Positions 3,918 through 30,612 of a DNA stretch of 35,060 nt are shown piece by piece (the stretch's first letter is position 1; each line of letters opens with the position of its first letter). The notes under the pieces were generated by a model that made no database searches, was not told where the DNA came from, and saw only the letters and a program-made list of their open reading frames with translations. Location of the stretch: assembly GCA_903927965.1 (NCBI GenBank), contig CAIYPA010000088.1:1-35060 (forward strand), read 5' to 3'. The DNA comes from an uncultured Bacteroidia bacterium (GTDB taxonomy: Bacteria; Bacteroidota; Bacteroidia; Bacteroidales; Prolixibacteraceae). The position numbers and the translations under genes are program-made.

Positions 3918-4673
3918 ATGATGACCGCCCCAACAATAATTACCATGCTCACATCCATCATCGTTGATGATGAACTTTTTGGCAGGGAGAACCTCAGGAT
4001 TGTCATCGAAAACTATTGTCCTGAAATTGAAGTGCTTGGGTGTGCTGATTCTGTTGTCTCAGCCAGGGAACTTGTAAATATCCAGCATCCGGATGTCGTT
4101 TTTCTTGACATCAACATGCCGGTACTTGATGGGTTTGATTTTCTCGATGGTTTTGAAGACCGGAATTTTCTTGTCGTATTCGTAAGTGCCCACGAAGAGT
4201 TTGGGATCAGGGCTGTGAAAGCAGGAGCTGCTGACTATCTTCTTAAACCTTTAAATATCAAGGAACTAAAACAAACTGTCAAAAACCTTTTGACTTTAAA
4301 AAACAAACATACAAAAATCGAACCTTTTCACGAGTCAGACAAGATTGCAGTTCCATCGTCCCATGGTTTTGATTTAATTGCAATTGATGATCTGATTCGT
4401 CTGGAAGCCGATGGATGTTATACAACTATTATTGTAACAGACGGTAAGAACAAAACTGTTTCACGGACGTTGAAGGAATATGAAGATACATTGCCTAAAG
4501 GCTGCTTCTTTAGGGCACATAAATCGCACCTGATCAATTTGAAGTATGTTAAAGATTATTCAAGTTTCGGCGGCTATTCTATTACGATGTCCGATGGCAG
4601 TAAGGTTGAACTGTCGCGCCGTAAAGCACCTGATTTTATTCTAAAGATAAAGGCAATGTTAAAAACAACCTGA
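3918..4673 (+). CDS. LytTR-family response regulator
   Basis: This is a 251-aa two-domain regulator. Residues ~12-130 are a receiver domain with the acidic pair DD at 17-18, the likely phospho-acceptor D64 in VFLDINMP, and the conserved lysine in LLKPLN. Residues ~150-250 are a LytTR DNA-binding domain (IRLEADGCYT, RAHKSHLINLKYV, ELSRRKAPDF), the AlgR/AgrA/LytR class that binds paired direct repeats. Two starts are possible: ATG 3918 (or 3921), or ATG 3945, which gives the more usual MLTSIIVDDE beginning. The kinase gene starts 2 bp after the stop, so they form one operon. The ACCGTT triplet at 7723-7773 is its best candidate target. Confidence 0.94.
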   Translation: MMTAPTIITMLTSIIVDDELFGRENLRIVIENYCPEIEVLGCADSVVSARELVNIQHPDVVFLDINMPVLDGFDFLDGFEDRNFLVVFVSAHEEFGIRAVKAGAADYLLKPLNIKELKQTVKNLLTLKNKHTKIEPFHESDKIAVPSSHGFDLIAIDDLIRLEADGCYTTIIVTDGKNKTVSRTLKEYEDTLPKGCFFRAHKSHLINLKYVKDYSSFGGYSITMSDGSKVELSRRKAPDFILKIKAMLKTT

Positions 4674-4675
4674 AC

Positions 4676-7663
4676 ATGCTTAACAGGAAAATTCTTTTGG
4701 CTTTAATCTCTTTTCTTTCATTTGTCAGGGTTAATTCACAGACACCTTCCTTTTATCATTACACTGCAACTGACGGGTTGGCTTCTTCGACTGTTTATGA
4801 TCTTATCCAGGATAAAAACGGATTGGTGTGGTTTGCCACATCTAACGGATTGAGCAATTTCGATGGCATTCACTTCTCGACATTCAGGACCAAAGATGGG
4901 CTTAATTCCAATTCTGTCATCTCGATGGTTGAAGGGAGATATGGTGAAATCTATATTGGGAATTATGAAAAAGGGATCAATGTTTTAAGAAATGGGCACG
5001 TTGAAAACTACTGCAAAAAGATAAAAGGGAAAAATTTCGCCACATCCTACATGCTTCTTGACACATTGGCACAGGGAGACCAAAAATTATATGCTTATCG
5101 TTCGTGGGGAAGTATCAATGTATTCCATGAAAAAATTGGCGATAGCAGATCAGACTATACTTTTTCCATAAACAAGCACATCATCAAACTAGAACAGCTA
5201 AAAGATGGACGTATAATCTCCTTAACTACAAAAGGACTAGACGAATTTATTGGCGATTCGCTTAGATCGTTAAATATCAATGGATTACCTGAATCACCAA
5301 TTTATTGTCTATCACAAGGAAAAGAAGGTGATTTTTACCTTGGTACAAGGGGAATGATCTACCAGATAAACAAAAATAGTGTTGTCCAACGAATTAAGAT
5401 AAACCTGAATGGAAATAATGATGTAGTTTCAATCCTGACAGACAGGAATGGCAATATCTGGTTTTCGGTCATGAACCGGGGTTTCTATTTAATCCAAAAA
5501 GGTTCAGATAACTACATTGACATTGGGAGTAAAATGAACCTTCAGAATACCCTTGTCAACAATTTTCTTGAAGACAATGAAGGAAATATCTGGGTAAGTA
5601 CCTTTGGTAAAGGGGTTTATTGCCTCAACAATCTTTACCTGAAAAACTTCAACGAGAACGATGGGTTGAGCAACAACAATATCTATTCAATGGAAAAGGT
5701 AAGCTCCGGCAAGTTAATCATCGGGACTTTTAACGGGATTAATATTTTCGAAAACGGGAAATTTTATCCTTTAAAGAGAAATTCTGGAAAAACCTTAACC
5801 GAAAATATAAACCATATCTCGAATTTTAATGACGAAATATATGTTTGTGGTGCTTTTGGCGGAAGCGAAATAATCAATTTAGCTTATCAAGGGATCAATT
5901 TTCATTTATTGGTTTATTCGGCATTCTGCAAAACGACATGGGGGGATTACCTTTTTGGCCAATGGGACAATTCGATATCTATTCACAGCAATATTAAGTT
6001 CATTAACAGTGAATTATCCAAAAAATACATTTTTGGGGACCGTACAAATGTTAACCGCATCAATTCTATTTTTGAGGATGCACAAAAGAATGTCTGGATT
6101 GGAACCGGTCTTGGTTTGTGCAAACTTTCGCCCTACACTGGAAAAACCGGATTGAAAGAATGGAATAAGCGATTGTTCCCTTCCGATCCTGTACTTAACT
6201 CCAAAATCACAGCGATCTACGAAGATACTAAAGGCACTGTTTGGTTTGCTTCGGAGAGGGGTATTGGGGTTTATGACCCTAAGAATGACTCCGTCAAAAC
6301 TTTTACTGCTCTAAAAGGATTTGATTTTTCCTCCTCTACTTCAATTGCTTCAGATAACAAAATGAGGATATGGGTGGGAAACATGAAAGGCTTATATCTG
6401 ATTAATAATGAAGATGTTAAATTTCTAAATACACAAACCGGCCTTCCATCCGATGAGGTATTTTCGCTTTGTTACGACAATAAAAATGACCAGCTGTACA
6501 TTGGCACAAGTAATGGCCTCTCGGTATTAAATGTGAAGCTTTTCGACAGTTACCCAAACCCTCCACCAAACGTCAAAATAACTAAGGTTGCGGTAGGTGA
6601 TTCTGTTTTTATTGATCCTAACAATTTAATATTTAAACCGGACCAAAACCATATCACCATTGGATTCAAAGCTTTAAGTTATTCCTCTCCCGGTTCTGTC
6701 AAGTATAAATATGTATTGAATCGGGATTCATCTGAAACTGACCAGGATTTCCTTGATTTTAGGTCACTTGACCATGGGAAATATAAGTTGACTATTGTTG
6801 CAAAATGTCAGAACAGTGTCTGGGGAAAACCTTGCAGTATCGAATTTGAAATTAAACCCCGATATTATGAGACCCTTTTGTTCAAGTTTGGAATGGTCCT
6901 CTTTATCGTTCTAATATCCATCACATTTATATCGTGGAGATGGAAACTGCAAAATAATAAAAACAGGCATGACCTGGAATTGTCTGAAAGGATCAATGAA
7001 TTGAAACACCAGGCACTTTCCGCAATGATGAACCCCCATTTTATTTTTAATGCGCTCAACTCTGTCCAATACCTTATCAATTCCAAACGGAACGAAGAGG
7101 CAAATGATTATGTTTCAATGATGGCCAGATTGATCAGGAAAAACCTCGACACAGCTGGAAATGGGTTTATCCCGATCTCGGAAGAAATTGCCCGCCTTAG
7201 GTTATATCTTGATCTTGAAAAACTCAGGTTTCAGGAAAGTTTTACCTATGAAGTTGTTACAGGAGACAGTGTAGATCCCGGATCGGTTCAGATCCCGAAC
7301 ATGATCATTCAACCATTTGTTGAAAATACCCTTTGGCACGGAATTATAAATAGTGGAAATGCAGGAAAGGTCACCATTTCCTTTTTATTTGAAGAAGTAA
7401 ATATTGATTCAGTCATATCCAAATCATTGATTATTAAAATCTCAGATAATGGAATAGGAATCAATGAGGCACGGAAGCATAAATCAGAAGACCATATTTC
7501 AAAAGGGATACAGATTATTGAAGAGCGTCTCAGGTTGTTGAGCACAAAAATGGACCTCCCAAAACCGATCATGCTCGAAGACCTCAGCAACAGGAACAAT
7601 AACTCACACGGAACAGAAGTGATAATTTCATTGCCGCCACAGCTTTATAAAATAAGCGGCTAG
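4676..7663 (+). CDS. propeller sensor histidine kinase (LytS/His_kinase class)
   Basis: This 995-aa sensor has a signal peptide (cleavage near VNSQT) and about 630 residues of two-component-regulator propeller repeats (DKNGLVWFATSNGLSNFDG, DNEGNIWVSTFGKGVYC, DTKGTVWFASERGIGVYD). A Y_Y_Y-type beta domain follows near 655-725, then one membrane helix near 735-757. The cytoplasmic kinase core has its phospho-acceptor H788 in MNPHFIFN, the N-box IIQPFVENTLWHGI and the G-box SDNGIGI. This is the short His_kinase/HATPase form that pairs with LytTR regulators, here the upstream neighbour. It is not a hybrid kinase and has no AraC domain, unlike many propeller sensors of polysaccharide loci. The periplasmic ligand cannot be told from sequence. 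Confidence 0.94.
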   Translation: MLNRKILLALISFLSFVRVNSQTPSFYHYTATDGLASSTVYDLIQDKNGLVWFATSNGLSNFDGIHFSTFRTKDGLNSNSVISMVEGRYGEIYIGNYEKGINVLRNGHVENYCKKIKGKNFATSYMLLDTLAQGDQKLYAYRSWGSINVFHEKIGDSRSDYTFSINKHIIKLEQLKDGRIISLTTKGLDEFIGDSLRSLNINGLPESPIYCLSQGKEGDFYLGTRGMIYQINKNSVVQRIKINLNGNNDVVSILTDRNGNIWFSVMNRGFYLIQKGSDNYIDIGSKMNLQNTLVNNFLEDNEGNIWVSTFGKGVYCLNNLYLKNFNENDGLSNNNIYSMEKVSSGKLIIGTFNGINIFENGKFYPLKRNSGKTLTENINHISNFNDEIYVCGAFGGSEIINLAYQGINFHLLVYSAFCKTTWGDYLFGQWDNSISIHSNIKFINSELSKKYIFGDRTNVNRINSIFEDAQKNVWIGTGLGLCKLSPYTGKTGLKEWNKRLFPSDPVLNSKITAIYEDTKGTVWFASERGIGVYDPKNDSVKTFTALKGFDFSSSTSIASDNKMRIWVGNMKGLYLINNEDVKFLNTQTGLPSDEVFSLCYDNKNDQLYIGTSNGLSVLNVKLFDSYPNPPPNVKITKVAVGDSVFIDPNNLIFKPDQNHITIGFKALSYSSPGSVKYKYVLNRDSSETDQDFLDFRSLDHGKYKLTIVAKCQNSVWGKPCSIEFEIKPRYYETLLFKFGMVLFIVLISITFISWRWKLQNNKNRHDLELSERINELKHQALSAMMNPHFIFNALNSVQYLINSKRNEEANDYVSMMARLIRKNLDTAGNGFIPISEEIARLRLYLDLEKLRFQESFTYEVVTGDSVDPGSVQIPNMIIQPFVENTLWHGIINSGNAGKVTISFLFEEVNIDSVISKSLIIKISDNGIGINEARKHKSEDHISKGIQIIEERLRLLSTKMDLPKPIMLEDLSNRNNNSHGTEVIISLPPQLYKISG

Positions 7664-7836: not shown

Positions 7837-8085
7837 ATGAATATTGTTAAAAAGCTGGTGGATTTATTTACTAAAAAGCAAGTTCGGCCTGCTCCTCTTA
7901 TCATTATCAAAAAAGACAAAGCAGAAGGCAACGTAATGGAATACAAATCCATTGACGATGCAATAGCCGATCTGGAAAAAGATCCCAATGTATCTTCCGC
8001 AAAAATTGAAAATCTAAAATCATCACTGAAGCAATTGAAGAACAAAACTTCAATCAAGATCAGAAATGGGGATATTTTACTTTAA
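7837..8085 (+). CDS. small charged hypothetical protein
   Basis: An 82-aa protein that I do not recognise. It is lysine-rich, has no signal peptide or membrane helix, and has a predicted helical middle (SIDDAIADLEKDP then ENLKSSLKQLKN) and a short beta-like end (IKIRNGDILL). It is the first reading frame after the LytTR-type operator and the candidate promoter, which supports it being real and coregulated with the cassette. An overlapping minus-strand frame (7824-8057) is less likely. The product would be cytoplasmic, unlike every later gene of the cassette. Confidence 0.6.
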   Translation: MNIVKKLVDLFTKKQVRPAPLIIIKKDKAEGNVMEYKSIDDAIADLEKDPNVSSAKIENLKSSLKQLKNKTSIKIRNGDILL

Positions 8086-8177
8086 ATACCTGATTATCTG
8101 AATTAACAATATGCGATATAAACGACTGTATGAATATATAATGATTGAACTCAACATTAATAAATAACAAAAAAGTA

Positions 8178-8903
8178 ATGAAAAAAGCACTATTTCTTTT
8201 ATTGGTTACATTAATTACCAATTGCTCATTTGCCTGTGATTGTGGAACCTGGGGCAAGTTGTTGGTACGCATACCAGCCGGATCAACCAGGTACGATTGT
8301 GGCAGCAAGATTGAATGGCCATGTAATCAGCCATTTTCCTTTACAAGCACCTACCAATGTACGCCAGCCAATGAGGCTTGTCAGGCAAAGAGTTCCTGGG
8401 ACGTTAAAAATGAAGCCGGTGTAGTAATCAAATCCGGTATTGGGACCAATAGCCTTAACGATGGTTTCAACCTCCCGGCAAGTGGAAAATACATTCTTAC
8501 CTTGCATGCCAGTTGCAATGGAATTATATGCAAGCCCTGTATTTATACCATAGTTGCCAATTGTCCCACTGTCTGTAACTGCGGAAACTGGGGTCAGCTT
8601 TTAGTTCAAGTTCCTGCTGGTTCAGCCAGATATGATTGCTTCAGTCAAATTAACTGGAAAGCGAATCAACCGCTTTCATTTACTAGTACTTACCAGTGTA
8701 GTCCAAACAACGCAGGGTGTCAGGCAAAAACAACCTGGGAAGTGAAGTCTGCCACTGGTACAGTAATTAAGTCAGGAACCGGTACTAATAACCTCAGCGA
8801 TGGTTTCAATCTCCCATCAAATGGCATTTTTTCACTTACCTTAAACGCAAGTTGTAACGGAATTGCCTGCAAACCATGTGTTTATAAAATAGTAATTCAG
8901 TGA
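8178..8903 (+). CDS. secreted cysteine-rich protein with two tandem repeats
   Basis: A 241-aa exported protein beginning MKKALFLLLVTLITNCSFAC. The mature part is two copies of a ~113-residue unit (bases 8235-8573 and 8574-8903). Each copy starts C-x-CG-x-WG-x-LLV and continues through PAGS-x-RYDC, FTSTYQC, CQAK-x-x-W-x-VK, GFNLP and ASCNGI-x-CKPC-x-Y. The evenly placed cysteines suggest disulfide-stabilised beta domains outside the cytoplasm. The cysteine just after the hydrophobic stretch could instead mark a lipoprotein, but the preceding SFA is not a good lipobox. ATG 8178 is chosen because it places the signal peptide at the N-terminus. I do not recognise the family. It opens the run of secreted genes. 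Confidence 0.85.
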   Translation: MKKALFLLLVTLITNCSFACDCGTWGKLLVRIPAGSTRYDCGSKIEWPCNQPFSFTSTYQCTPANEACQAKSSWDVKNEAGVVIKSGIGTNSLNDGFNLPASGKYILTLHASCNGIICKPCIYTIVANCPTVCNCGNWGQLLVQVPAGSARYDCFSQINWKANQPLSFTSTYQCSPNNAGCQAKTTWEVKSATGTVIKSGTGTNNLSDGFNLPSNGIFSLTLNASCNGIACKPCVYKIVIQ

Positions 8904-9044
8904 TCTTTACGCTGTATTCAAATACTCAAAACAATAGAACAGAACTATAATCAGGATTAGGAATAGAGAAATAATCAATTGATCTGCCAATATTTCAGAT
9001 TGAAAATGCCAGATGTTTTTAATTACATAAATGAAACAATAATC

Positions 9045-10727
9045 ATGAAAAAAACAATCTTATTATTTTTATTATTGATTGCTATTCAGGGGTTTACACA
9101 AAATTATCCGATTACCGGCATTAATATTACACTGCCAGCCAGCCCGGATGCCAATACAGCCAACTGGGGAACAGGCACCTCCATGCTTACGATTACTGCT
9201 TCAACAAAAGCAGAGAATGGAAGGGTTGCGCCAAATGTCATCGAAAGTAAAATACTGGTAATCATTAAGAAAGGCGGCTCTAAAGTGTGTGGCGATTTCA
9301 ATAGTAACACTGCACCTGCTGCAGGATTCAATACTTTGACAAAAGTGTGGAGTGGTGCCAATGCCGCTTCTTTATTGGGAAAAGGTTGTGTCCTGGCCCC
9401 GGGTGATTATGAGCTTTGTGTGCAGTTTTTTGGATATGCGCTAGCTAAAAATGGCGCGGTAAGTGATGAGCAATGTAAACCTTTTACAATCAGGGGAAAT
9501 GATCAACAAGCCTATCAACCGCCTCAAGCTATTGTACCGGCAGATGGAACTTCATTGACAGAAGCGGATATCAAAAAGCCCATCACTTTCAGGTGGACAC
9601 CTGTGATACCCAGACCGCAGTATCCTGTCACTTATCACTTATCGGTATGGCAATTGATGCAGGGACAAACCGGAGTTCAAGCCATGAAGTCAAATTCGCC
9701 AATCATTGAAAAGGATGTTGACAATCTGACGCAGGTGGTTGTAACTGATTTAATATCAGTCTCTTGTAAAGCACCTTATCTGTGCAGTTTTATCTGGAAT
9801 GTTCAGGCAATCAATAAAGAACGTAAAGGAGTTGGCACCAACGATGGGAAAAGCGGGTCAAATCAATTTAAACTCTTGTCTTCGGATGTTAATATCACTA
9901 ATTTTCAGATTGCATGTGTTTCTTATGGCGTATATAGCTATACACTTAAAGCAGAAAATCCCGGCAACGGGCAATTCTTTACAAATTCTATCGCTTTTAA
10001 CAGTTCGGGCGGATCTATTACTTTACCTACATTTAGTCCGGTTGTACCCGGCACGACCATCAGCAATGGAAGTCCTGTATCCTTTACAGGGACTTTTCAT
10101 TACAATGGGACTTATCCGGCGGCGATTTATTCAAAAATCAGTGGTTATCAGGTAGGAAATACTAACCTTACCAGTACTGACACAGATCAGGATACGTTAC
10201 AGGCCTGTTTGTGTAAAGATTGTGACAAGGCCATATTCAATTTTACGGCTACCTCCATCACGCCAAGCAGTGGCAACAACAGTAGGTTCAACCTGGCAGG
10301 GAATATCAATGTGACCGGTTTGCCTTCTGTTTACGGGATAGAGCTTCAGATTCAATCGTATGATTATACTCCGAATCCAGTAGCCTGTTCAAATGGTGTC
10401 ATGAATATTGAAAACTCAGGTATGTTTTTAATTCCTGGAACGACCATCAATAGTAGTTCATTAATTCAGATTTTTAACGAAACCATATCCGGTAGCCCAT
10501 CCACCAACAACAACGCCAGCAAGGATATCAAATATACCAGTGCCACCCCTCTTGGTGGAAGTATTCCTGTTAATCTGTTGATTGGATTGCCTGGACCAAT
10601 TTCGGCGTTAGGATCTGATTGCTGCAAAATAAAGTACAATGTTTGCATCAGTGTAAAAGTTTACTACGACAGAAGTTCTTGTAAATCATGTCTATTTACA
10701 AAATGCTTTCAATTTTCCAACCAATAA
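9045..10727 (+). CDS. secreted TANFOR-like protein with cysteine-rich C-terminal domain
   Basis: This 560-aa protein has a clear signal peptide (MKKTILLFLLLIAIQGFTQ). Residues ~20-160 form a beta-rich domain ending in LAPGDYELCVQFFG. Residues ~170-245 carry an Fn3-like segment with ITFRWTPVIPRPQYPVTYHL and GQTGVQAMKSNSPIIE. This segment recurs in the 15552 gene and resembles the region after TANFOR domains of Bacteroidota. From ~388 to the end is a cysteine-rich domain (CLCKDC, DCCKIKYNVC, CKSCLFTKC) that recurs at the C-terminus of the next gene product. No T9SS sorting domain is visible. Start chosen at ATG 9045 for the signal peptide. The next gene begins 11 bp downstream. The TANFOR assignment is from memory of the pattern and is tentative. 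Confidence 0.85.
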   Translation: MKKTILLFLLLIAIQGFTQNYPITGINITLPASPDANTANWGTGTSMLTITASTKAENGRVAPNVIESKILVIIKKGGSKVCGDFNSNTAPAAGFNTLTKVWSGANAASLLGKGCVLAPGDYELCVQFFGYALAKNGAVSDEQCKPFTIRGNDQQAYQPPQAIVPADGTSLTEADIKKPITFRWTPVIPRPQYPVTYHLSVWQLMQGQTGVQAMKSNSPIIEKDVDNLTQVVVTDLISVSCKAPYLCSFIWNVQAINKERKGVGTNDGKSGSNQFKLLSSDVNITNFQIACVSYGVYSYTLKAENPGNGQFFTNSIAFNSSGGSITLPTFSPVVPGTTISNGSPVSFTGTFHYNGTYPAAIYSKISGYQVGNTNLTSTDTDQDTLQACLCKDCDKAIFNFTATSITPSSGNNSRFNLAGNINVTGLPSVYGIELQIQSYDYTPNPVACSNGVMNIENSGMFLIPGTTINSSSLIQIFNETISGSPSTNNNASKDIKYTSATPLGGSIPVNLLIGLPGPISALGSDCCKIKYNVCISVKVYYDRSSCKSCLFTKCFQFSNQ

Positions 10728-10738
10728 ACAGTAAGGAT

Positions 10739-13700
10739 ATGAAATCTATTATAACTCAATTCAGGTTTTCATTTTTAACCTTGATCGCCTTTTTCTCTTT
10801 CCTGAATGTACAAGGCCAAACCATTGTTTCAAGTGATGTATGCAACAGTTTTGGCCAACCCTCAGAGGTTAGTTTGAAAAACAGTTCCGGCGCCCCATTA
10901 TTAGGCGAAAAAACCGGACTCGATTTTAACCTCCTCGTTGATGTTCCAGGTGGAATTTGTCAGGGTGGTCATTTTAACATTACCGTCACCACATCGGCCA
11001 ACCTTCAATTAGGAACCCAGGATCCTAACTATCCTTTTATTGCAGGAAGTACGCCAAATCAATACGTTAACGGAGGATTGATCACATCCAACAGCGGACA
11101 GGGGATCAATATTCCATTCCGGTTTTTACCGGGAGTTACCTGTAACGACGAACTGGGCACATTCGATATTACGACAACCTTAACCTGTACAGATGGTTCG
11201 GTTAAAACCTGTACTTTTAAGCAATTGTCATTAAAAGCCATTGCACAAAATTACTGGAAGGTAGAAAAGACCCATGTTTTTGGCAATTTATCAGGTGGTG
11301 GAATATATTGGGACGTGATTATCAGCAGTACAAATCCAAATCCAGGCATTGGCGATTTAAATATTTACAGTGGTTCAATTCAGGATGTAGTCTCCAGCGA
11401 TGCGATTGTTTCAGTGGCCGGTGGAAGCATGTCCGGACTTACAGGATTGAATACCCCTACTGCCTCATGGTTTACGGGAACGATATTAAGTACCACATCT
11501 ATAGTCATTTATCATGTTCAGACTTATAGTTGTAAACCTACAGGAACGGTGGTAAAGAATTGTGTGAATTATGATTTTTGTCTCGGGAAAGAGATTAAGA
11601 TGCATCCTTATGATCCATTGGAGAAAAAATTTCCCGGTGGTCCCGTAGGCCCCATCCAAAAACTTTGCTGTGAGAGAAAAACAGGTCAGGCCTGTGCTTC
11701 TGTAACATTAACAGGTACAGCAACCAATAGCGCAAATTTCGGAAAATCTTTAACTTATGGTACTAACCTGAACTATGCCCAGGGATGTGAGGGTGAATAC
11801 CAGATCAATGTCTCAAATAATGGAAATATCCCATTGAACAATCTGATCATCACCGATAATTTCCCTGCCGGGATCAACGTCTCTCAAATCAGCGTATCTG
11901 CCTATAACACGACAATGGGTTATGATGTTCCTACCGGAACCCCTTCATCACCGTACACTACTTCAGGCACCAATTATTCACAGTCATGGAGTTCGGGTTA
12001 TCCGACTAATTTTAAACTGACGACCAATTCAGGGGTACTTCTTGGCGGTTCTATAACTATCCTAATCAAGTTTACAATTACGGCCCCTGCAGGTACAGTC
12101 ATTTCAAATTGTGCAGATTTAAATTTTCAGGGAACTTACAATGGATGGAGCAACTGGTGCAATATTACCCTGCCACCGATAGGAAGTGGAACTGCTTCAC
12201 ACAGTTGTATTCCGTTCACCGTTCAGCAGCCCAAAGCAATTCCAGGTATCCGTAAATGCATCACCAATGGTTTGGGATCCTTTAGTGTCGGGGATGTTAT
12301 CCCTTTTCGGATCGTTGTTTCAAATCACGGGGCGGCAAATTTTTCAGGCAACCTTTCCGACTTTTTGGGCGCTCCAACCCTTCAGAATCTGGAACTGGTT
12401 TCCGGATCGGTTACCTATTCTTATGGATTGGCTTCATTCAGTCCCTATACGACCACACCAGGTTGCATTTCCAATTTTTCTAATGTTTCCTCAACCCCGC
12501 CTTCATGGGTATCGGTAACGCAACAGATCGCACAAGACTTAAAATGGACTATCAATAATATGCCCGGCGATTGCCATTTGGAAACTGCGTCTTACCTTAT
12601 CATTGAGTTTAATGCCAAAGTAAAATCACAATCATTTGGTAATTATTGCAATACGGCAACGCTCGTCAATACCGCAACCTCTGCTTCCATCTCTTCCGAT
12701 GCTTGTTACAATATCAGAAGAAGCGCCATCATTACAACTACCAAGCAGGAGAGTACTACCATGGTGGAACCGGGTCAGTCGTTTAGTTATACAATTGTAG
12801 TTAAAAATGAAGGAAGTGTAGCTTTGAAAGATATCACTGTTGAAGATGCCTTGCCGGATTGTGTCACTTATGTAAGCCGAAGTGCCAATAAACTGGATGT
12901 CAGCGGGAATTCAACTGTTGCCAGCGTAACTCCTGCCGGAGCGCCTCCATATACTTTCCCGGGATTGATTCTTCAACCAGGTGAGAGTGTAGTGGTGACC
13001 ATCAACGTAATCCGCAAATCGAATGATCAGGGTGCTGAATGTTGCAATCCGATGGCAGTAGGAAGGGGCGTCTCAAACGATGCAGTACTGACGCATGTTT
13101 GCTGTCAGGCTCCAATGGTTTGTGTAAAAAGCGGTCTTTGTTGTGACATTAAAGATTTGGAGGTTCAATTTAATACAACCATTATCAACGGAGGTATTGT
13201 TCCGGCATTCTTTATTACATCAGGTCCTTTGCCGGTTCAGGAAATTGATATCACTTTAATGGATTATCATGCTGAATACAGCAATCCATTATGCCAGCCA
13301 ACAAATATGGGAAACCTCACAGGGCATATCCAACCTTTTGTAGGGAGTGACAATAACAACAACTATTGGGATTTCAATTCATTACCGGGCACAGGAACTC
13401 CGTATTTAACCCTTCAGACTGTAATAAACCCTGTAAACAGCGCATTGACCTGGACCGGTACTAACCCAATTGATTTGACAGGTTCATCCTGGGCAACATT
13501 TGCAAACGGGTTAATCGCCTTAAACTTTATTGCCCCTGATATCCTAAACCTTGACTGTTGCGCCGGCCGGGTCTATTATTGTTTCAAAGTCAGGATCAAA
13601 GACGTTGACTGCAATGTTTGTGAAAAGATCGTATGCGGGTCATCAGAAATTCCAAAGAAAAGACAAGCCAGATGGAACAATGAAAAAGCTAAGGATCAGC

Positions 13701-13795
13701 AACAGATTCAATCACTGAAAGTTATCCCTGCAACAAAAGCCAATGGCAGTGGATTACCTGAACTTTTCAGGATCAAGAATCAAATCAAAAAATAG
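10739..13795 (+). CDS. large secreted DUF11-repeat protein with cysteine-rich C-terminal domain
   Basis: A 1018-aa protein with a signal peptide ending near LNVQGQT. ATG 10739 follows a TAAGG motif, a better Shine-Dalgarno than most here. At least three DUF11-type beta domains are visible: near 350 (YQINVSNNGNIPLNNLIITD), near 503 (IPFRIVVSNHG) and near 670 (FSYTIVVKNEGSVALKDITV). Such domains act as extracellular stalk modules. From ~801 to ~970 is a domain like that of the 9045 protein (CCDIKDL, DCCAGRVYYC, CNVCEKIVC), followed by a basic tail of ~45 residues (PKKRQAR, ending IKNQIKK). No type A or B T9SS domain is seen. The barrel gene starts 2 bp after the stop, implying tight coupling. 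Confidence 0.88.
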   Translation: MKSIITQFRFSFLTLIAFFSFLNVQGQTIVSSDVCNSFGQPSEVSLKNSSGAPLLGEKTGLDFNLLVDVPGGICQGGHFNITVTTSANLQLGTQDPNYPFIAGSTPNQYVNGGLITSNSGQGINIPFRFLPGVTCNDELGTFDITTTLTCTDGSVKTCTFKQLSLKAIAQNYWKVEKTHVFGNLSGGGIYWDVIISSTNPNPGIGDLNIYSGSIQDVVSSDAIVSVAGGSMSGLTGLNTPTASWFTGTILSTTSIVIYHVQTYSCKPTGTVVKNCVNYDFCLGKEIKMHPYDPLEKKFPGGPVGPIQKLCCERKTGQACASVTLTGTATNSANFGKSLTYGTNLNYAQGCEGEYQINVSNNGNIPLNNLIITDNFPAGINVSQISVSAYNTTMGYDVPTGTPSSPYTTSGTNYSQSWSSGYPTNFKLTTNSGVLLGGSITILIKFTITAPAGTVISNCADLNFQGTYNGWSNWCNITLPPIGSGTASHSCIPFTVQQPKAIPGIRKCITNGLGSFSVGDVIPFRIVVSNHGAANFSGNLSDFLGAPTLQNLELVSGSVTYSYGLASFSPYTTTPGCISNFSNVSSTPPSWVSVTQQIAQDLKWTINNMPGDCHLETASYLIIEFNAKVKSQSFGNYCNTATLVNTATSASISSDACYNIRRSAIITTTKQESTTMVEPGQSFSYTIVVKNEGSVALKDITVEDALPDCVTYVSRSANKLDVSGNSTVASVTPAGAPPYTFPGLILQPGESVVVTINVIRKSNDQGAECCNPMAVGRGVSNDAVLTHVCCQAPMVCVKSGLCCDIKDLEVQFNTTIINGGIVPAFFITSGPLPVQEIDITLMDYHAEYSNPLCQPTNMGNLTGHIQPFVGSDNNNNYWDFNSLPGTGTPYLTLQTVINPVNSALTWTGTNPIDLTGSSWATFANGLIALNFIAPDILNLDCCAGRVYYCFKVRIKDVDCNVCEKIVCGSSEIPKKRQARWNNEKAKDQQQIQSLKVIPATKANGSGLPELFRIKNQIKK

Positions 13796-13797
13796 AA

Positions 13798-15531
13798 ATG
13801 AACAATCTTATAAAAATTGCCTTCCTACTTGTCTTTTTATCAGCTTTCCAGACCAATGCACAGGAAAAGAAGAAATTCTTCTCTTTGAGCGGCGATATGG
13901 GAGTCTGGTACGAAGGTTATGGGCTCGATAAAACACCCGGGTCACCTTCTCCCGATTTTTATAAGGCAAGACGGCCATGGAACCTGTTCAGATATACCTT
14001 TAATCCGATCTTCACGATTGGTAAATGGGAAATTCCGTTCAATTTCAATTTCAGTCCTGGCTTGAATAATTTCACATTGCCAACTGGATTAAAACAAAAC
14101 TTCTGGCAGTTCCTGACCAATCCGGTCAATAGTTTCGGACTTCGGCCTAAGATCGGCAGTTCAGAGTTTTTGTTGGGAACACAATATCTGAAATACAGCG
14201 ATTTGAGTACAGGAGACCTCGGCGTATTTGGATATGGCATTAACTTATCTCCAGGGAAGTTCAGGATCAAATTGTTCAATGGAGTATCTCAAAGCCCTGT
14301 TGAATATATGGCCCCTTCTATCCAGGTACCTAACGGAGTGACCGGTGCCTATCAGCGCAACCAATGGATGGCACAATTGGGACTTGAAAATGACGGGAAG
14401 TACTTCGCCGGATTCAACTTTATAAAATCGGTTGACAAAATCGGTTCTGTATCAGCACCCCCTTTATTTCCGATAGCCCCGCAGGAGAATATGGTGGTCA
14501 GCTTCTTAGCAAATGCTACTTCCGCAAAAGGGTGGAAGTATCATATAGAGCTTGGTCAGAGCTTTTTTACAAGGGATTTGAATACACCTTTTTCCATTTC
14601 ACCGGTTGAAGATTTCAGGCCATTTCTCAATTCTCACCTCTCAACAGGTAAAGATAACGCAGTAATGTTGGGGGTCACCAAAAAGGGGAGCGACTGGGAG
14701 ATTGGAACAAAATTCAATTACTTCGGTGCAGGGTATTATACGGCAGGTTTTCAGTTTATGAACAACGACAGGATGGAATATCTGCTGAATACACGCTTCA
14801 ATGCATGGAAAAAGAAAGTGAACGTAGTTGCCAGTATCGGCGAACGATTTGGCAATCTGAGCCGTACAGCAGGCCCGGATCGGACTAAGCAGTTGATTGC
14901 CAATGTAAATGTATTTACTCAGTTTAACGATCATTTCAGCCTGAATTCAAGCTTTAACAATTTTGGATTTAACAGTCCGGGAATTTCCGGATACAAAAGC
15001 GTTAGCAATGAGCTTAGTATAAATCCGGTCTATACCTGGAACACAACTTCGATGGCAAACATGCTGAGTGGCACATATACCTGGAGCAAATACGATGAAA
15101 CGATCCTGAATGTGACTACCAATAACAATACCCATACGGCTTTGTTGCTTTACGTCCCTACTTTTTTCAACAGTAAACTCAGTCCCGATTTTAGCATCAT
15201 GTATTTCAAAAATTCGGCGCCGCTTATTAATGTGTCTTTATTTACGGCTACAGCAGGGTTGGGATGGAAAGTGAGCAAAAAGTTTAAAACTAAAGGACAG
15301 TTACAATATACCCTAAGTTCGATGGCTCCATTTACTGCCAATAAAAACCTGCTTGTCACGAGCGGTTTTGACTGGGATATCCTGAAAAAACTGACCTGGC
15401 AGTTAACAGGTACGGCAAATGTTTATCATTTCGGGTCTGAATTGCCCGGAGGTTCTTTAATGCCACCTTATTCCGGCATTCCGGCATATTTGGAGAGTAC
15501 TTTGAGAACCGGTTTACAATACAAGTTTTAG
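13798..15531 (+). CDS. large outer-membrane beta-barrel protein
   Basis: A 577-aa protein with a signal peptide (MNNLIKIAFLLVFLSAFQTNAQ). Alternating amphipathic strands run over its whole length, and it ends in phenylalanine (TGLQYKF), the usual terminal residue of outer-membrane barrels. I estimate 20 or more strands. I see no plug, POTRA or TonB box. It lies between the large secreted proteins and the second TANFOR-like protein, so it may be their outer-membrane partner, for example an anchor or export pore. That role is inferred from operon position only. Confidence 0.82.
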   Translation: MNNLIKIAFLLVFLSAFQTNAQEKKKFFSLSGDMGVWYEGYGLDKTPGSPSPDFYKARRPWNLFRYTFNPIFTIGKWEIPFNFNFSPGLNNFTLPTGLKQNFWQFLTNPVNSFGLRPKIGSSEFLLGTQYLKYSDLSTGDLGVFGYGINLSPGKFRIKLFNGVSQSPVEYMAPSIQVPNGVTGAYQRNQWMAQLGLENDGKYFAGFNFIKSVDKIGSVSAPPLFPIAPQENMVVSFLANATSAKGWKYHIELGQSFFTRDLNTPFSISPVEDFRPFLNSHLSTGKDNAVMLGVTKKGSDWEIGTKFNYFGAGYYTAGFQFMNNDRMEYLLNTRFNAWKKKVNVVASIGERFGNLSRTAGPDRTKQLIANVNVFTQFNDHFSLNSSFNNFGFNSPGISGYKSVSNELSINPVYTWNTTSMANMLSGTYTWSKYDETILNVTTNNNTHTALLLYVPTFFNSKLSPDFSIMYFKNSAPLINVSLFTATAGLGWKVSKKFKTKGQLQYTLSSMAPFTANKNLLVTSGFDWDILKKLTWQLTGTANVYHFGSELPGGSLMPPYSGIPAYLESTLRTGLQYKF

Positions 15532-15551
15532 AAAGAATAAAGTCAAGTTCA

Positions 15552-16451
15552 ATGAAAAAATACACCTATACATTATTGCTCGGATTACTGCTGTCTGGAC
15601 AGTTTTCTCAGGCTCAGATTACACTGAACCTTGCCCTAAACAGCAGGCCGCAGCCCTATCTGGCCGATTGGGTCTATCCCATTAACGGACAAATGATTAT
15701 CACCTATATAGGCGGGACAATCAGTATTGATCCCAATGTAAAAATAAAGACCACCTTGCTGGACCAAAGCGGCGGGATCATTGGCGTATCCAATTTAAAT
15801 GCAGCCCGTGTTTACAATTTGAAGGCTGGGGTCAATCAGTTTACAATGGCAGATGCTCTCCAACTTCAGAATTTGTCTTTATCAGGAAATTTGCAAAACC
15901 TCCTTCAAAGGACAGGCCGTTTGCCAGCCGGACAATATCAACTCTCGGTGGAAGTGGTCAATACCGCCGGCGATATTGTCAGGACAAAGCAAAGCAAACC
16001 ATTTTATGTCGTTTCGTATCAGCTACCGGTTTTAATGCAACCTGCAAACGGAGCTTCGCTGGATGCCCATATTGCACAAAATGTGATTACTTTCAGGTGG
16101 ACAAGTCTTGTACCAACTACGCCGGAACAAACATTTTACCGCATTCAGGTATTTGAAATCCTTCCAGGCCAGACTCCCATGCAGGCATTTCGTGGTAACC
16201 GTCCCTTACTGGATGAACCGGTTGGAAGGGGCATGACACAATACATCTGGCATCCAAACCTGCCTATGCAGGACTCAACAGCCAATAATCAGTTTATCTG
16301 GACCATACAGACACTGGATGCCAAAGGGCTACCAGTCCCTTCTGCGGATATGACCACACAGGGGAGAAGCGAACCTGCCATCTTTGGCATTTTGCACAAG
16401 TCGATTTCAGAAGATCACAACATCAATAAGGATGATCTAATAAAGCATTGA
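15552..16451 (+). CDS. secreted TANFOR-like protein, paralog of the 9045 product
   Basis: A 299-aa protein with a signal peptide (LLLGLLLSGQFSQAQ). Residues ~20-150 are beta-rich and contain PYLADWVYPINGQMIITY and LPAGQYQLSVEV, resembling the TANFOR domain of Bacteroidota surface proteins. The C-terminal half has VITFRWTSLVPTTPEQTFYR and GQTPMQAFRGNRPLLDE, clearly parallel to the FRWTPV and GQTGVQAMKSN segments of the 9045 protein. It lacks the cysteine-rich C-terminal domain. It starts 20 bp after the barrel gene and ends 2 bp before the OmpA gene. The two paralogs may be subunits of one assembly. Confidence 0.82.
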   Translation: MKKYTYTLLLGLLLSGQFSQAQITLNLALNSRPQPYLADWVYPINGQMIITYIGGTISIDPNVKIKTTLLDQSGGIIGVSNLNAARVYNLKAGVNQFTMADALQLQNLSLSGNLQNLLQRTGRLPAGQYQLSVEVVNTAGDIVRTKQSKPFYVVSYQLPVLMQPANGASLDAHIAQNVITFRWTSLVPTTPEQTFYRIQVFEILPGQTPMQAFRGNRPLLDEPVGRGMTQYIWHPNLPMQDSTANNQFIWTIQTLDAKGLPVPSADMTTQGRSEPAIFGILHKSISEDHNINKDDLIKH

Positions 16452-16453
16452 AT

Positions 16454-18001
16454 ATGAAACATTTAAAATATACGATTATTTTATGCTTTCTCTTTCTGCA
16501 ATTAGCGGCTCAAGACAATGCAGAGATAAAAAAGTCAACCCTGGTATTTCATACTTTTTACAACGATTTCAAAACGGCCCAATTGATAAGGACGAGCTCA
16601 TTGAAGAACGTATGGGACAACCATCTTTGGAGCAAATTTGGTGAAATGCAGATGGGTTTTGGTCTCAATTACCTGAAAGGGATGACCCAAAAATTGGATT
16701 TTGTTGCCACCATTGACGGAAGCTCGACCGATTACCTTTTTAAAGACGGGTCAACCAACGGTAGCAGTGCCTTTTTGCTGGATGTCAATACGGCTTTGAA
16801 CCTGAAGTTACTTTCAGATAAACACATCGTAACTCCTTATATTTCATTGGGTGCCGGATATTCTTTATACAAAGGCAAATCAGGGTTTTATCTTCCGATT
16901 GGAGTTGGATTGCAATTTAATTTGTTCAAAGAAGCTTTTGTCTTTGCCAATGGACAATATAGAACTGCCTTAAGTTCACAGGTAAACAACCATTTTCAAT
17001 ACACTATCGGGGTCGGAGCAAGTCTGGCTAAAAAAAAGAAAGTTGCCAAAGTGGCTGAAGCAATTGTAATACCAGAACCGGTAATAAAAGAACTGGTTGT
17101 AGTAATACCAGCCAGTAATATCTTAATATCCGTAAAAGACGAAGAAACCGGTCAACCACTTCCATTGGTGGATGTGATACTGAACGGACCCGACAACAAA
17201 AGGTTGACAGCAGTTACAGATGCGGAAGGAAAGGTCATTTTCTCAAAGATGGAGCCTGCCGATTATTCAATCACCGGATTGTTGAACCATATCAGTACCA
17301 CAGCGAAAAATATCGCAAAAGGCGATTTTGTAGCGAATGGTGAACAGATCTATATCTCACTGACTCACAACGATCCCCGGTTCACCTTTGCAGGTATAGT
17401 GATCAACAAGACCAAAAACATACCGGAGGGTGGGGCTGAAATTCAGATTAACAATGTTACTATCCAGAGTCAGTCAATCGAACAAAGCGATCCTGCAGAT
17501 GGTCGTTTTAAGGTTCAGTTGGCTGCTGAAAGTGAGTTTACGGTAGTTGGTAAGAAGGCAGGTTACATCTCAAACATTGAAAAAGTCAGTACCCAAGGGT
17601 TAAACAGAAGCACAACCTTGTATGTGAAGCTGGAACTTGGAATTGAAGAGGCGAAAGTTGGCCAGAGCATTGTATTGAAAGATATTAATTTTGAATTAGG
17701 AAAGTCAACATTGAACGCTGCTGTTTCGCCAGATCTCGACAGGTTGGTCCAATTTCTAAAAGATTTTCCTGAAGCAAGACTTGAAATCCAAGGACATACC
17801 GATAATATTGGAAGTCCAGAGTCGAACATCAAACTCAGCAATGCACGTGCCAATAGTGTGGTCTATTACCTGGCAAAACATGGGATTGACATCAGAAAGC
17901 TGTCTGCCAAAGGTTATGGCGCTTCAGTTCCTATTTTTGACAATGCAACTCCAGAAGGGAGGGCGAAAAACAGAAGGGTCGTGATGAAGGTGGTGCAGTA
18001 A
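16454..18001 (+). CDS. outer-membrane barrel / carboxypeptidase-like / OmpA fusion
   Basis: A 515-aa protein. Signal peptide (ILCFLFLQLAAQ), then ~170 residues of small-barrel type (GFGLNYLKG, TPYISLGAGYSLYKG). Next is a carboxypeptidase-regulatory-like beta domain near 235-300 (VKDEETGQPLPLVDVIL), then a second beta region. From ~405 to 515 is an OmpA peptidoglycan-binding domain (LEIQGHTDNIGSPESN, LSNARANSVVYYL, KNRRVVMKV). The OmpA end should hold the complex to the cell wall. ATG 16454 starts 2 bp after the preceding TGA; a TTG at 16448 is an unlikely alternative. It is the last gene of the cassette, and its stop codon abuts the heptamer array. Confidence 0.9.
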   Translation: MKHLKYTIILCFLFLQLAAQDNAEIKKSTLVFHTFYNDFKTAQLIRTSSLKNVWDNHLWSKFGEMQMGFGLNYLKGMTQKLDFVATIDGSSTDYLFKDGSTNGSSAFLLDVNTALNLKLLSDKHIVTPYISLGAGYSLYKGKSGFYLPIGVGLQFNLFKEAFVFANGQYRTALSSQVNNHFQYTIGVGASLAKKKKVAKVAEAIVIPEPVIKELVVVIPASNILISVKDEETGQPLPLVDVILNGPDNKRLTAVTDAEGKVIFSKMEPADYSITGLLNHISTTAKNIAKGDFVANGEQIYISLTHNDPRFTFAGIVINKTKNIPEGGAEIQINNVTIQSQSIEQSDPADGRFKVQLAAESEFTVVGKKAGYISNIEKVSTQGLNRSTTLYVKLELGIEEAKVGQSIVLKDINFELGKSTLNAAVSPDLDRLVQFLKDFPEARLEIQGHTDNIGSPESNIKLSNARANSVVYYLAKHGIDIRKLSAKGYGASVPIFDNATPEGRAKNRRVVMKVVQ

Positions 18002-18176: not shown

Positions 18177-18444
18177 ACTGATGAGTGTCCAGAAAACAAC
18201 ACTCTTTAGGTCTTCAGGTTAATACGATATAAATAAGGTAAATAAGGTTGGGTTATCTCCGAGACATGTGGCTATTAAGGTTAAAAAAATGGGGAAAATA
18301 AGGTTTTATATGCTTAAATATCTTATTCCCGATTGATAGTGATAGTCTCACTCGAAGTGAGGCTATCACTTGTTATTGCTGTCAAACCTGATTTTACATT
18401 TTTTTAAACCTATATAGCCACCGTTTGAACCTCAACTTAAAACT
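18177..18444. other. intergenic stretch between convergent genes
   Basis: Together with the heptamer array this makes a 443-bp gene-free stretch between the cassette and the CAP gene, which point toward each other. It holds two adjacent 9-mers AAATAAGGT (18231-18248), a third near 18297-18305, and the inverted repeat at 18338-18370. I see no coding signal, tRNA or promoter in it. Confidence 0.7.
18338..18370. repeat. 15-bp inverted repeat, possible bidirectional terminator
   Basis: AGTGATAGTCTCACT, a CGA loop, then AGTGAGGCTATCACT. The arms pair over 15 bp with one G-T wobble. It lies between convergent genes, as a shared terminator would, but neither side has a strong T-run, so intrinsic termination is uncertain. 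Confidence 0.6.
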
Positions 18445-23225: not shown

Positions 23226-23930
23226 CTACTTCTTTTCATCGCTTGCTTTTTGTTCGGCAGCTTTTGCCTTCCGTTTAAAATATCCCCTGAACAGGAAGTT
23301 GTGCTTTGCGGCTTCCATATTTTCATCGAGTCCTTTGGAACTTCGTTTTAGGTTAACAATGGTCTGGTTTAAGTTTTGGGCAATTGTCGTATCCTGGATC
23401 AACCTGCCAAGGGTACCTTCCCCACCATTTATTTTCACCATGATCTCAGCAAGTTCCTGTGAAATGATCTCTACATTACCCGCCGTAACCTGCAAGCTTG
23501 CCATGATCTCATCTGTTTCGACTGGCTCTTTTGAGGTAAGTTGTTGACCTTCAGTAGCGATATTGGCTTCCGAACTACCTTGTGTAATGATCAGCAGTTT
23601 GTCACCTATGAGCCCTTCCGATCCAATCGCTGCCTCACTATCCGATTTAATAAACGGTTTTACCTCCTGCTTGATCAGCATATCGACCTTTACCGTCGAA
23701 TCGTTGATGATGGATATGTTGTCAATTGTGCCGATGTTGATTCCTGAAAAACGGATGTTGTTTCCAACCTGAAGTCCACTGACATTGTAAAAATTGGATG
23801 TCAGTTTAAAAACGGGGTTGAACAGGTTCTTTTGTTTCCCGATGATAAAAATGGATATGACGAAAAGGGCCAATCCACCAACAACAAAAAGCCCAAGGCG
23901 TATTTTAAAGTTCTGACTATTATTGTCCAT
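23226..23930 (-). CDS. MCE-domain lipid-transport protein (MlaD-like)
   Basis: A 234-aa protein with one N-terminal membrane helix (LGLFVVGGLALFVISIFII, ~9-28). The MCE domain runs ~38-115 (FYNVSGLQVGNNIRFSGINI, VKVDMLIKQEVKPFIKS, IGSEGLIGDKLLIIT). A helical C-terminal region and a lysine-rich end follow. MlaD proteins form a ring under the permease and pass phospholipids through the periplasm. At 234 aa it is longer than E. coli MlaD, mainly in the C-terminal helix. It is third in the order permease, ATPase, MCE. Confidence 0.9.
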   Translation of the reverse strand: MDNNSQNFKIRLGLFVVGGLALFVISIFIIGKQKNLFNPVFKLTSNFYNVSGLQVGNNIRFSGINIGTIDNISIINDSTVKVDMLIKQEVKPFIKSDSEAAIGSEGLIGDKLLIITQGSSEANIATEGQQLTSKEPVETDEIMASLQVTAGNVEIISQELAEIMVKINGGEGTLGRLIQDTTIAQNLNQTIVNLKRSSKGLDENMEAAKHNFLFRGYFKRKAKAAEQKASDEKK

Positions 23931-23971
23931 GATATTTGAGTTGGGGAATTTTAATATTTCCTTATCTATTG

Positions 23972-24754
23972 TTAATTGAAAAATGATTTGATCAATCCAT
24001 CACTTGAATTTTCAAAATCATCCAATGATCCTTCAAGATAGCACTCGCCATCATAAAGCATGATCAAGCGGTTAGCAGTGGCCCTGGCACATTTGATATC
24101 GTGCGTGATGATAATGGAAGAAGTCTTGTATATGTTCTGTACTTCGTTGATTAGCGTGCTGATTTCATCAGAAGTAACAGGATCGAGGCCGGTCGTCGGT
24201 TCGTCGTACAACATAATTGCAGGATCCATGACTATGGTCCTGGCAAGGCTGATCCTTTTTCTCATCCCACCCGAAAGTTGGGAAGGCATCTTGTTCAAAG
24301 CATCAGCCAAACCTACATTTTCCAGTGTCACCAATATTTTATCGTCTATCTCCTTTTTTGTCATATTTTTCTTGATCCTTTTCAATGGGAATTCAAGGTT
24401 TTGCTTCACTGTCATTGAATCGTACAGCGCACCACTTTGAAAAAGAAACCCAATTTTCTTTCTCAACTCCCCTAACCCATTACGGTCAAGTTCGCTAACA
24501 TCATCCCCATTTACCTTAATTACGCCACCATCAGATTCCAATAGTCTGACGATACATTTGATAAGGACAGACTTACCAGAACCCGATTTACCAAGTACAA
24601 CCAGGTTTTCGCCATCGTAAAGGTTTAAAGACACACCTTTCAGGACAGGTTGATTCCCAAAGGATTTCCTGAGGTAGTTTATTTCAATAACAGGTTCATC
24701 CTTTTTGTGGTCTTTCATTCCAATATCCAGCTTTTCCATAATAAACATGTCCAT
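23972..24754 (-). CDS. Mla-type ABC transporter ATPase (MlaF-like)
   Basis: A 260-aa ATP-binding subunit. Visible are Walker A LGKSGSGKSVL, a Q-loop in GFLFQSG, the signature LSGGMRKRISLART, Walker B IMLYDEPTTGLDP and the switch histidine in IIITHD. The SGGMRKR form of the signature is typical of MlaF-type ATPases. ATG 24754 gives an 18-bp gap after the permease gene. ATG 24739 (MEKLDIG) is equally possible. It should power the MlaE-like permease next door. Confidence 0.93.
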   Translation of the reverse strand: MDMFIMEKLDIGMKDHKKDEPVIEINYLRKSFGNQPVLKGVSLNLYDGENLVVLGKSGSGKSVLIKCIVRLLESDGGVIKVNGDDVSELDRNGLGELRKKIGFLFQSGALYDSMTVKQNLEFPLKRIKKNMTKKEIDDKILVTLENVGLADALNKMPSQLSGGMRKRISLARTIVMDPAIMLYDEPTTGLDPVTSDEISTLINEVQNIYKTSSIIITHDIKCARATANRLIMLYDGECYLEGSLDDFENSSDGLIKSFFN

Positions 24755-24772
24755 TATTCAATTCATTGTATA

Positions 24773-25624
24773 TTAAGTAAATAGCATATCCGTAATTTGA
24801 ACAGCTATCATGTCTACAATCAAAACCAGGAGCGAAGCCAGTACGACAGCCGAATTTGCAGCAATGCCTACACTTTCAGTTCCACGTCCGGCATTGTATC
24901 CCTTGTAGCATCCAACCAATCCGATAACAGCGCCAAAAAAGAATGATTTTACAAATGCGGGAATGAAATCGATGAACCCTACATGGCCAAATGCTTGGGA
25001 AAAAAACAAGGTAAACGTTACCTCACCTTTGATATTTGCACCGACCCAACTTCCAATTATCCCAAGAGCATCGGCGTATAAAATCAAAAGCGGTATCATC
25101 AATATAGCAGCCCAAACCCTTGTAACAACCAAATATTTCATTGGGTTGGTGGAGGAAACCTCCATGGCATCGATTTGTTCGGTCACTTTCATTGAACCCA
25201 ATTCTGCCCCCATACCGGAACCTATTTTGCCGGCACAGATCAAAGCTGTGATAACCGGCCCCATTTCACGTATGATCGAAATGGCCACCATGCCCGGAAG
25301 TTTGGATACTGCACCAAAATCAATAAGAACCGGACGCGATTGCAGTGTTAGTACCAATCCCATTATGGCTCCGGTAATGGTTATCAAAACCAATGTTTTT
25401 GATCCGATCTGGTAACACTGGCGGAAAAATTCCTTAAATTCAAAACCTCCCGAGAAGGTCTCCTTTATCATCCGTGTTGTAAAAATTAGGACATCTGCAA
25501 AGTCGGTCAAGAAATTACTGAACTCCGTTGTTTTCGCGATTGTTTTTTCGCTGATCCTGATTGTAAATTCTTTTGCCTTACCCAGATTGGGGATTAGTTT
25601 GATAACAGGTAATGTCCTTTTCAT
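24773..25624 (-). CDS. Mla-type ABC permease (MlaE-like)
   Basis: A 283-aa permease of the MlaE family. Typical stretches are LVLITITGAIMGLVLTLQSRP, SIIREMGPVITALICAGKIG, GSGMGAELGSMKVTEQIDAM and the final VVLASLLVLIVDMIAVQITD. It has an N-terminal amphipathic segment and about five to six membrane helices. ATG 25624 (MKRTLPVIKL) is preferred over an in-frame TTG three codons earlier. It heads the Mla operon; a terminator at 25646-25676 separates it from the CsbD gene. Confidence 0.93.
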   Translation of the reverse strand: MKRTLPVIKLIPNLGKAKEFTIRISEKTIAKTTEFSNFLTDFADVLIFTTRMIKETFSGGFEFKEFFRQCYQIGSKTLVLITITGAIMGLVLTLQSRPVLIDFGAVSKLPGMVAISIIREMGPVITALICAGKIGSGMGAELGSMKVTEQIDAMEVSSTNPMKYLVVTRVWAAILMIPLLILYADALGIIGSWVGANIKGEVTFTLFFSQAFGHVGFIDFIPAFVKSFFFGAVIGLVGCYKGYNAGRGTESVGIAANSAVVLASLLVLIVDMIAVQITDMLFT

Positions 25625-25645
25625 AACGGCCAATATATTTTAAAA

Positions 25646-28426: not shown

Positions 28427-28448
28427 TTTTTTTGTTTTTAGCGAAAAA

Positions 28449-29387: not shown

Positions 29388-29428
29388 CCTGTATCGTTTT
29401 CTATCACATAAATATTCCTCTACGGATA

Positions 29429-30394: not shown

Positions 30395-30508
30395 TTACAA
30401 CCATTATAAATAATCAATTAGTCCCTTTTAATTCTTTCTGCCTGATGGGACCCTTTTCAAGCCCGATTGTACCATCGGTGTTTTCAATCATTTTATTTTT
30501 CTGAAATA

Positions 30509-30556: not shown

Positions 30557-30612
30557 TGGGCAGTAATATTCTGAACTGTTAAAGCGTATATGCTTTCAGT
30601 TTGTTATCCCGG

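Follow-up and report, generated by a model that had tools for sequence, protein, structure and literature searches.

A candidate outer-membrane docking and display module of Bacteroidota, centred on a large beta-barrel and its TANFOR-type partners

We present an analysis of seven consecutive + strand genes at positions 7837-18001 of contig CAIYPA010000088.1 (GCA_903927965.1), a stretch of 35,060 nt from an uncultured Bacteroidia bacterium of the Prolixibacteraceae, which is referred to in its entirety as the window. Our main reading, to which we assign a probability of about 0.5, is that the genes of the locus together specify a single outer-membrane module for docking and display. At its centre would be the large barrel, with T2, a bare TANFOR domain followed by an Fn3-like domain, as constant partner; an OmpA-type protein would tether the assembly to the peptidoglycan, so that barrel, T2 and OmpA protein together form a base. 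A second TANFOR-type protein, T1, would dock at the barrel via its TANFOR domain, and a variable protein X, here a giant with DUF11 domains, would join T1 via a cysteine module common to both, by which means an Ig-like/DUF11 stalk would be displayed on the cell surface. The reading starts from five observations, namely the gene order and its recurrence, the homology of T1 and T2 to TANFOR proteins, the fusion of TANFOR and barrel in other genomes, the module shared by T1 and X, and the structure model of the barrel. The genes, with protein lengths in amino acids (aa), are as follows.

7837..8085, + strand: small protein, 82 aa, signal peptide not seen, no family over cut-off
8178..8903, + strand: cysrep, secreted cysteine-rich protein, 241 aa, 19 Cys, two repeats of ~110 aa
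9045..10727, + strand: T1, 560 aa, signal peptide, TANFOR-type N-terminal module and cysteine-rich C-terminal module T1C (~10173-10727)
10739..13795, + strand: X-slot protein, the DUF11 giant, 1018 aa, 35 Cys, second T1C module (~13163-13660)
13798..15531, + strand: large outer-membrane beta-barrel, 577 aa, one copy in the genome
15552..16451, + strand: T2, 299 aa, signal peptide, TANFOR and Fn3-like domain, then nothing; putative adaptor directly 3' of the barrel
16454..18001, + strand: OmpA-type anchor, 515 aa, N-terminal region, CarboxypepD_reg and OmpA peptidoglycan-binding domain

All seven are real, uninterrupted open reading frames (ORFs), as a preliminary description of this DNA had claimed. 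The tight gene order that it also reported applies from T1 to the OmpA gene, where the successive gaps are 11, 2, 20 and 2 bp, but not to the small and cysrep genes, which are followed by gaps of 92 and 141 bp and are consequently more loosely attached. Its assignment of signal peptides to six of the seven proteins agrees with our own reading of the sequences: each of the six begins with a basic and then a hydrophobic stretch, with ..Q after it in five. Families exceeding the Pfam cut-off were limited to DUF11 (PF01345), OmpA (PF00691) and CarboxypepD_reg (PF13620), with none in cysrep, T1, the barrel, T2 or the small protein. The N-terminal region of the OmpA protein resembles a small barrel. 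Aligned with each other, the two cysrep repeats score 414, against at most 26 in any of 500 shuffles; a search for repeats at the DNA level in the cysrep region returned nothing.

The recurrence of the block was assessed in two collections of loci (our own labels are L for loci and G for genomes): nine loci of near relatives (L025-L033), and a wider set of 36 loci (L160-L195) in 35 largely metagenomic assemblies, which was obtained from a scan of species genomes, has barrel identities of 40-77%, and includes records titled Lutibacter, Daejeonella, Pedobacter, Mucilaginibacter, Sphingobacterium, Limnovirga soli, Lacihabitans, Ferruginibacter, Prolixibacteraceae and Chitinophagaceae. Of 120 genomes searched in the window's own family, 20 carry the barrel. 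All nine near-relative loci carry barrel, T2 and OmpA genes, or the portion of them present on the contig, in the same order; T1 is nearby in eight of them and off the contig in L028. In the wider set T2 directly follows the barrel at all 35 loci where this can be seen (one more contig stops inside the barrel), T1 is present at all 29 loci with enough DNA (28 upstream, one downstream; seven contigs end earlier), and the OmpA gene directly follows T2 at 25 of 33 loci, two more contigs stopping at T2. The slot between T1 and the barrel is variable, being occupied by DUF11 orthologs, by cysteine-rich proteins of ~1400-2000 aa or by others, including one of 704 aa that is paired with a T1 of 1600 aa; orthologs of the window's own giant were found in L166 and L174 (60-61% identity) and in L191 and L192 (37-38%). 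Relatives of the small protein occur only in L027 (61%) and L169 (58%), and cysrep-type repeats recur within the cysteine-rich giants of L170, L171, L186 and L188-L190. The core conserved across loci consists of T1, X, barrel, T2 and OmpA; most other loci have neither the small protein nor a free cysteine-repeat gene in view. The gene-neighbourhood check suggested in the preliminary description therefore turned up a recurring multi-gene block rather than orthologs scattered singly, although the set that recurs is this core and not all seven genes, and the DUF11 giant within it is replaceable.

Some barrels from elsewhere are closer to that of the window than several from its own genus. Identity is 65-71% to the barrels of L167, L168, L172, L173, L177, L178 and L195, from records titled Flavobacteriaceae, Lutibacter, Daejeonella or Mucilaginibacter, and only 50-53% to those of four (L030-L033) among the seven matching genomes of the same genus; this could reflect either horizontal transfer or two paralogous lines. 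A search for a plasmid relative yielded one partial match, in Bergeyella porcorum (42% of the query), with no clear system around it.

The term TANFOR-like, which the preliminary description had applied to T1 and T2, is borne out by profile-profile comparison, although a direct scan with the TIGR02542 model matched neither protein. In an alignment of the T2 family, three of 11 members match TIGR02542 weakly (best E 0.0035), and the T2 profile aligns by hhalign with nine TIGR02542-matching giants over 262 columns (99.6%, E 7.8e-24); T1 is in turn related to T2 at ~25-30% identity. The curated TIGR02542 cut-off does not discriminate here because it was exceeded in no genome of two genome scans. 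On this basis T1 and T2 are classed as TANFOR-type proteins with a predicted N-terminal TANFOR domain. In the window's own genome all TANFOR-type matches and all barrel matches fall within the locus. A structure model of T1 (predicted template modelling score, pTM, 0.34) matched generic Ig, Fn3 and macroglobulin chains in the PDB (integrins, fibronectin, complement) and was not used.

The association of TANFOR-type proteins with the barrel extends to distant loci. With a TANFOR-type profile built only from 17 near relatives of the window, we found a TANFOR-type N-terminus in the gene after the barrel at 43 of 65 distant loci, a proportion that does not describe a random sample because the loci were chosen for the most part among the highest-ranking barrels; the corresponding counts were 3 of 56 for the gene before the barrel and 6 of 291 for other ORFs of at least 150 aa. 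TIGR02542-positive genomes of the phylum also have the barrel in all 14 cases (Fisher 1.1e-6, or 2.0e-5 when the comparison is restricted to SprA-positive genomes; both uncorrected for ancestry), and the barrel gene adjoins six of 18 TIGR02542 places. Barrel loci elsewhere include giants of ~1350-3470 aa with TANFOR-type N-termini, and in L223 a 2307-aa protein of this kind stands directly before the barrel. At L111, L112, L113, L116, L119, L121 and L125 a TANFOR-type giant follows the barrel and is often succeeded by a protein of ~700-750 aa, possibly an extra component.

The two proteins also occur fused. A TANFOR match and a barrel are encoded in a single ORF of 863-1016 aa in ten genomes from five families (G425, G499 and G503; G259, G335 and G355; G295 and G438; G386; G315), and in eight of the ten the TANFOR match lies within the first 270 residues. 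In profile comparisons the barrel part of all ten fusions together scored 98.3% (E 2.1e-14) and the N-terminal part of the eight 99.3% (E 3.1e-20), against 0.2% and 0.3% for two negative controls; no TANFOR match was present in 13 further distinct barrel ORFs of at least 680 aa. G425 has the fused gene in an operon ordered T1, X, TANFOR-barrel. In the fusions the TANFOR domain lies N-terminal to the first barrel strand, and the two termini of a barrel with an even number of strands point inward. Docking would then take place at the periplasmic face or inside the lumen, which leads us to lean towards the barrel as holder and conduit of TANFOR proteins.

T1 and X share a cysteine module. A profile of this module, T1C, constructed from the last 185 residues of T1 proteins alone and searched against the 470 ORFs of L160-L195 and the window, matches 19 T1 proteins, 21 ORFs located either between T1 and the barrel or, at a contig edge, immediately ahead of the barrel, and none of the remaining ORFs; the window's DUF11 giant is matched at E 1.7e-9. 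The window's own genome carries T1C only on T1 and X, and a role of T1C as a genome-wide general sorting signal is thereby ruled out. Among 392 genomes of the phylum T1C occurs in 15, and it lies near a barrel in the window's own genome, G245, G425 and G259. At three further loci it is found singly and internally in lone cysteine-rich proteins of ~1200-1470 aa (L221, 2501-6841; L222, 2884-7290; L224, 3240-6857).

The barrel call of the preliminary description is backed by a structure model with 25 strands of at least 9 residues (predicted local distance difference test, pLDDT, 82; pTM 0.69). A profile from 20 barrels, run on the 392 Bacteroidota genomes at a threshold of E<=0.001, detected the family in 151 genomes, 93 of them at E<=1e-20 and the other 58 by weaker matches only (best E above 1e-20); the copies per genome are a lower bound, since at most three candidates were scored in each. 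No real match to the barrel was found in Pfam, NCBIfam or the PDB, and the search for solved-structure relatives of the barrel or T2 gave none of note (one plant receptor kinase, E 0.074). Wide barrels that hold another protein include MtrB, FimD and PapC, and these are among the best Foldseek matches of the model: the MtrB barrel of the Mtr complex (PDB 6r2q) is the best, with a template modelling (TM) score of 0.51 and a root-mean-square deviation (rmsd) of 13.2, and MtrB and the ushers FimD and PapC take ranks 1, 6-7 and 15. The barrel differs from them in the absence of a sequence relation and in the looseness of the superposition (TM at most 0.51, rmsd at least 13). Chaperone-usher and two-partner secretion families exceeded the cut-off in none of eight proteins scanned with Pfam and NCBIfam, the sole hint being a sub-threshold match of T2 to the TcfC E-set (E 0.028). 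The barrel was also considered as a relative of PorP/SprF, which is ruled out: hhalign against the window's own PorP/SprF gave 0.2%, PF11751 does not match, and PorP/SprF is a FadL-like 14-stranded barrel, in contrast to the 25 strands of the model. Our searches of the open literature on TANFOR, PorP/PorE, type B domains and polymorphic toxins turned up no account of the barrel or its pairing with TANFOR, with subscription papers and preprints outside their scope.

Taken by their parts, the proposals differ in strength. That the products of the locus form a physical complex we consider quite likely from the adjacency, fusion and shared-module data, and surface display is probable; that the barrel, rather than the type IX secretion system (T9SS), serves as the export pore, a route that the preliminary description had thought possible, is a tentative suggestion. 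Several observations weigh against a dedicated module. The OmpA gene is missing at eight of 33 loci, a TANFOR match is lacking in 22 of the 65 genes after the barrel, and no barrel match lies near six of the 18 TIGR02542 places, while six more are ~6-11 kb or two genes away from one; of eight TIGR02542 places in the other scan, G003, G025 and G082 were left out. The fusions of L229 and L237 match TANFOR only in short stretches (257-335 and 311-419). G126 has two adjacent T1C proteins (L218, 1672-6867) and no barrel match in the genome, and ten genomes have a single T1C protein, with no barrel nearby in the three that were examined (L221, L222 and L224). The Foldseek matches of the barrel are loose, as already noted. 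Finally, the barrel was found only alongside the T9SS marker SprA, and so strict a co-occurrence speaks for T9SS as the exporter: SprA is present in 319 of the 392 genomes, including all 151 with the barrel and all 93 with a strong barrel match, and the barrel occurs in none of the 73 SprA-negative genomes. These counts are uncorrected for ancestry, which may explain the correlation because many SprA-negative genomes belong to one family (14 of the 20 listed among the 73 are in family f19).

This last point leads to an alternative that we regard as nearly as likely as the docking and display module, though below even odds, namely that T1, X and the remaining TANFOR proteins leave the cell via T9SS (SprA) by means of an unrecognised signal, and that the barrel serves as their shuttle and surface anchor in the manner of PorP/SprF for type B substrates, with the OmpA protein acting as PorE. 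In addition to the SprA correlation, confounded by ancestry as it is, this alternative can draw on published work. PMC9143113 describes the binding of PorP to PorE and to a type B substrate, and a combination of CarboxypepD_reg and OmpA domains in PorE that the window's OmpA protein shares; according to PMC12618676, type B substrates depend on cognate PorP/SprF shuttles, whose genes are often adjacent; and T9SS export of TANFOR proteins was proposed, as a hypothesis, by Jana, Salomon and Bosis in 2020 (PMC7073777). On the other hand, the preliminary description had noted the lack of a T9SS sorting domain, and our profile search for hidden ones found none in T1, X or T2 (TIGR04183, TIGR04131/PF13585 or other; Pfam and NCBIfam, E up to 0.1) and none in 20 T1C modules (E up to 1). 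A sub-threshold TIGR04183 match in cysrep (E 0.019, 15 of 23 bits) falls in an internal stretch. The barrel, moreover, is unrelated to PorP/SprF and larger. The OmpA protein scores 88.6 bits against a cut-off of 600 for the PorE model NF052230, and has by Pfam only the latter two of the TPR, beta-propeller, CarboxypepD_reg and OmpA-type domains of PorE. By analogy, with the PorE-PorP-PG1035 complex as a precedent, the docking and display module would work like PorP-PorE-type anchoring while standing outside that family (PMC9143113 and PMC12618676): both combine an outer-membrane barrel, an OmpA/CarboxypepD_reg peptidoglycan binder and a large surface protein, here encoded together, but in the present locus the barrel is of another family, no type B domain is found and the constant part of the cargo is N-terminal.

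TANFOR proteins are themselves a described class of Bacteroidetes polymorphic toxins with C-terminal toxin domains, one of these proteins having been tested, according to PMC7073777, and it could be supposed that, in contact-dependent antagonism, the C-termini of T1 and X are toxic and are passed to other bacteria, with the barrel serving for delivery. T1 and T2 resemble these toxins in the kind of N-terminal module, the signal peptide, the phylum and the T9SS-positive genomes, and the TANFOR-type giants at barrel loci elsewhere would fit such a role. We nevertheless consider it improbable. Pfam and NCBIfam reveal no toxin family in T1, T2 or X, and there is no separate immunity-like gene between them; the T1 C-terminus is the shared cysteine module, T2 stops after its TANFOR module, and in ten barrel-linked giants the last 600 aa yielded a single Pfam match, to Lcl_C, just under the cut-off. 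Far less probable still is a loose island of unrelated surface proteins that stand together by chance or shared regulation and form no common structure; the contents of the X slot and the small and cysteine-repeat genes do differ among loci, but the fixed barrel-T2 adjacency, the TANFOR-barrel fusions and the module common to T1 and X all argue against it. The preliminary description knew of no named system with this gene set; TANFOR proteins are described in PMC7073777, but the main text of that paper contains neither the word barrel nor OmpA.

The docking and display module, if correct, would supply the TANFOR proteins and their hypothetical export route with a concrete partner, a barrel that often lies beside them and that ten genomes encode in one polypeptide with TANFOR. 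It would also mean that TANFOR is used without a recognisable toxin, as a surface structure, and it draws attention to a widespread outer-membrane barrel family that has no model in the libraries searched. A broader version, in which the barrel is the founder of an undescribed Bacteroidota export-and-display apparatus with TANFOR as docking signal, TANFOR toxins and TANFOR/T1C proteins as cargo, T2 as resident gate and a pore of its own beside T9SS, seems to us rather unlikely.

Two candidate regulatory genes, separated by 2 bp, precede the locus, the second ending 173 bp before the small gene.

3918..4673, + strand: response regulator of LytTR type (PF00072 and PF04397 by Pfam scan), candidate regulator
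4676..7663, + strand: sensor histidine kinase with Reg_prop propeller repeats (PF07494) and His_kinase (PF06580), candidate regulator

The preliminary description had placed the locus under its own two-component control. This is plausible from the gene arrangement but not general: among 24 loci with at least 1.8 kb visible upstream of T1, nine have a relative of the histidine kinase there (56-63% identity in L167, L169, L172 and L177; 25-30% in five others), accompanied by a response regulator in four of the nine (L175, L178, L183 and L184), and none was seen at the five same-genus loci in this set. A Bacteroidota-type promoter pattern occurs 0 times in the window, compared to 1.36 expected.

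Downstream, a 15-pair inverted repeat at 18338-18370, ~340 bp past the OmpA stop and between convergent genes, is a possible terminator. A T9SS type B neighbourhood lies in the same window, adjoining the locus, on the - strand at 25979-33656, and comprises a PorP/SprF gene, a PD40+OmpA protein that we take to be PorE-like, a DUF11 protein with a CHU_C sorting domain, and PKD and ice-binding proteins. The - strand genes at 23229-25633 are those of a lipid transport operon (MlaD, ABC, MlaE).

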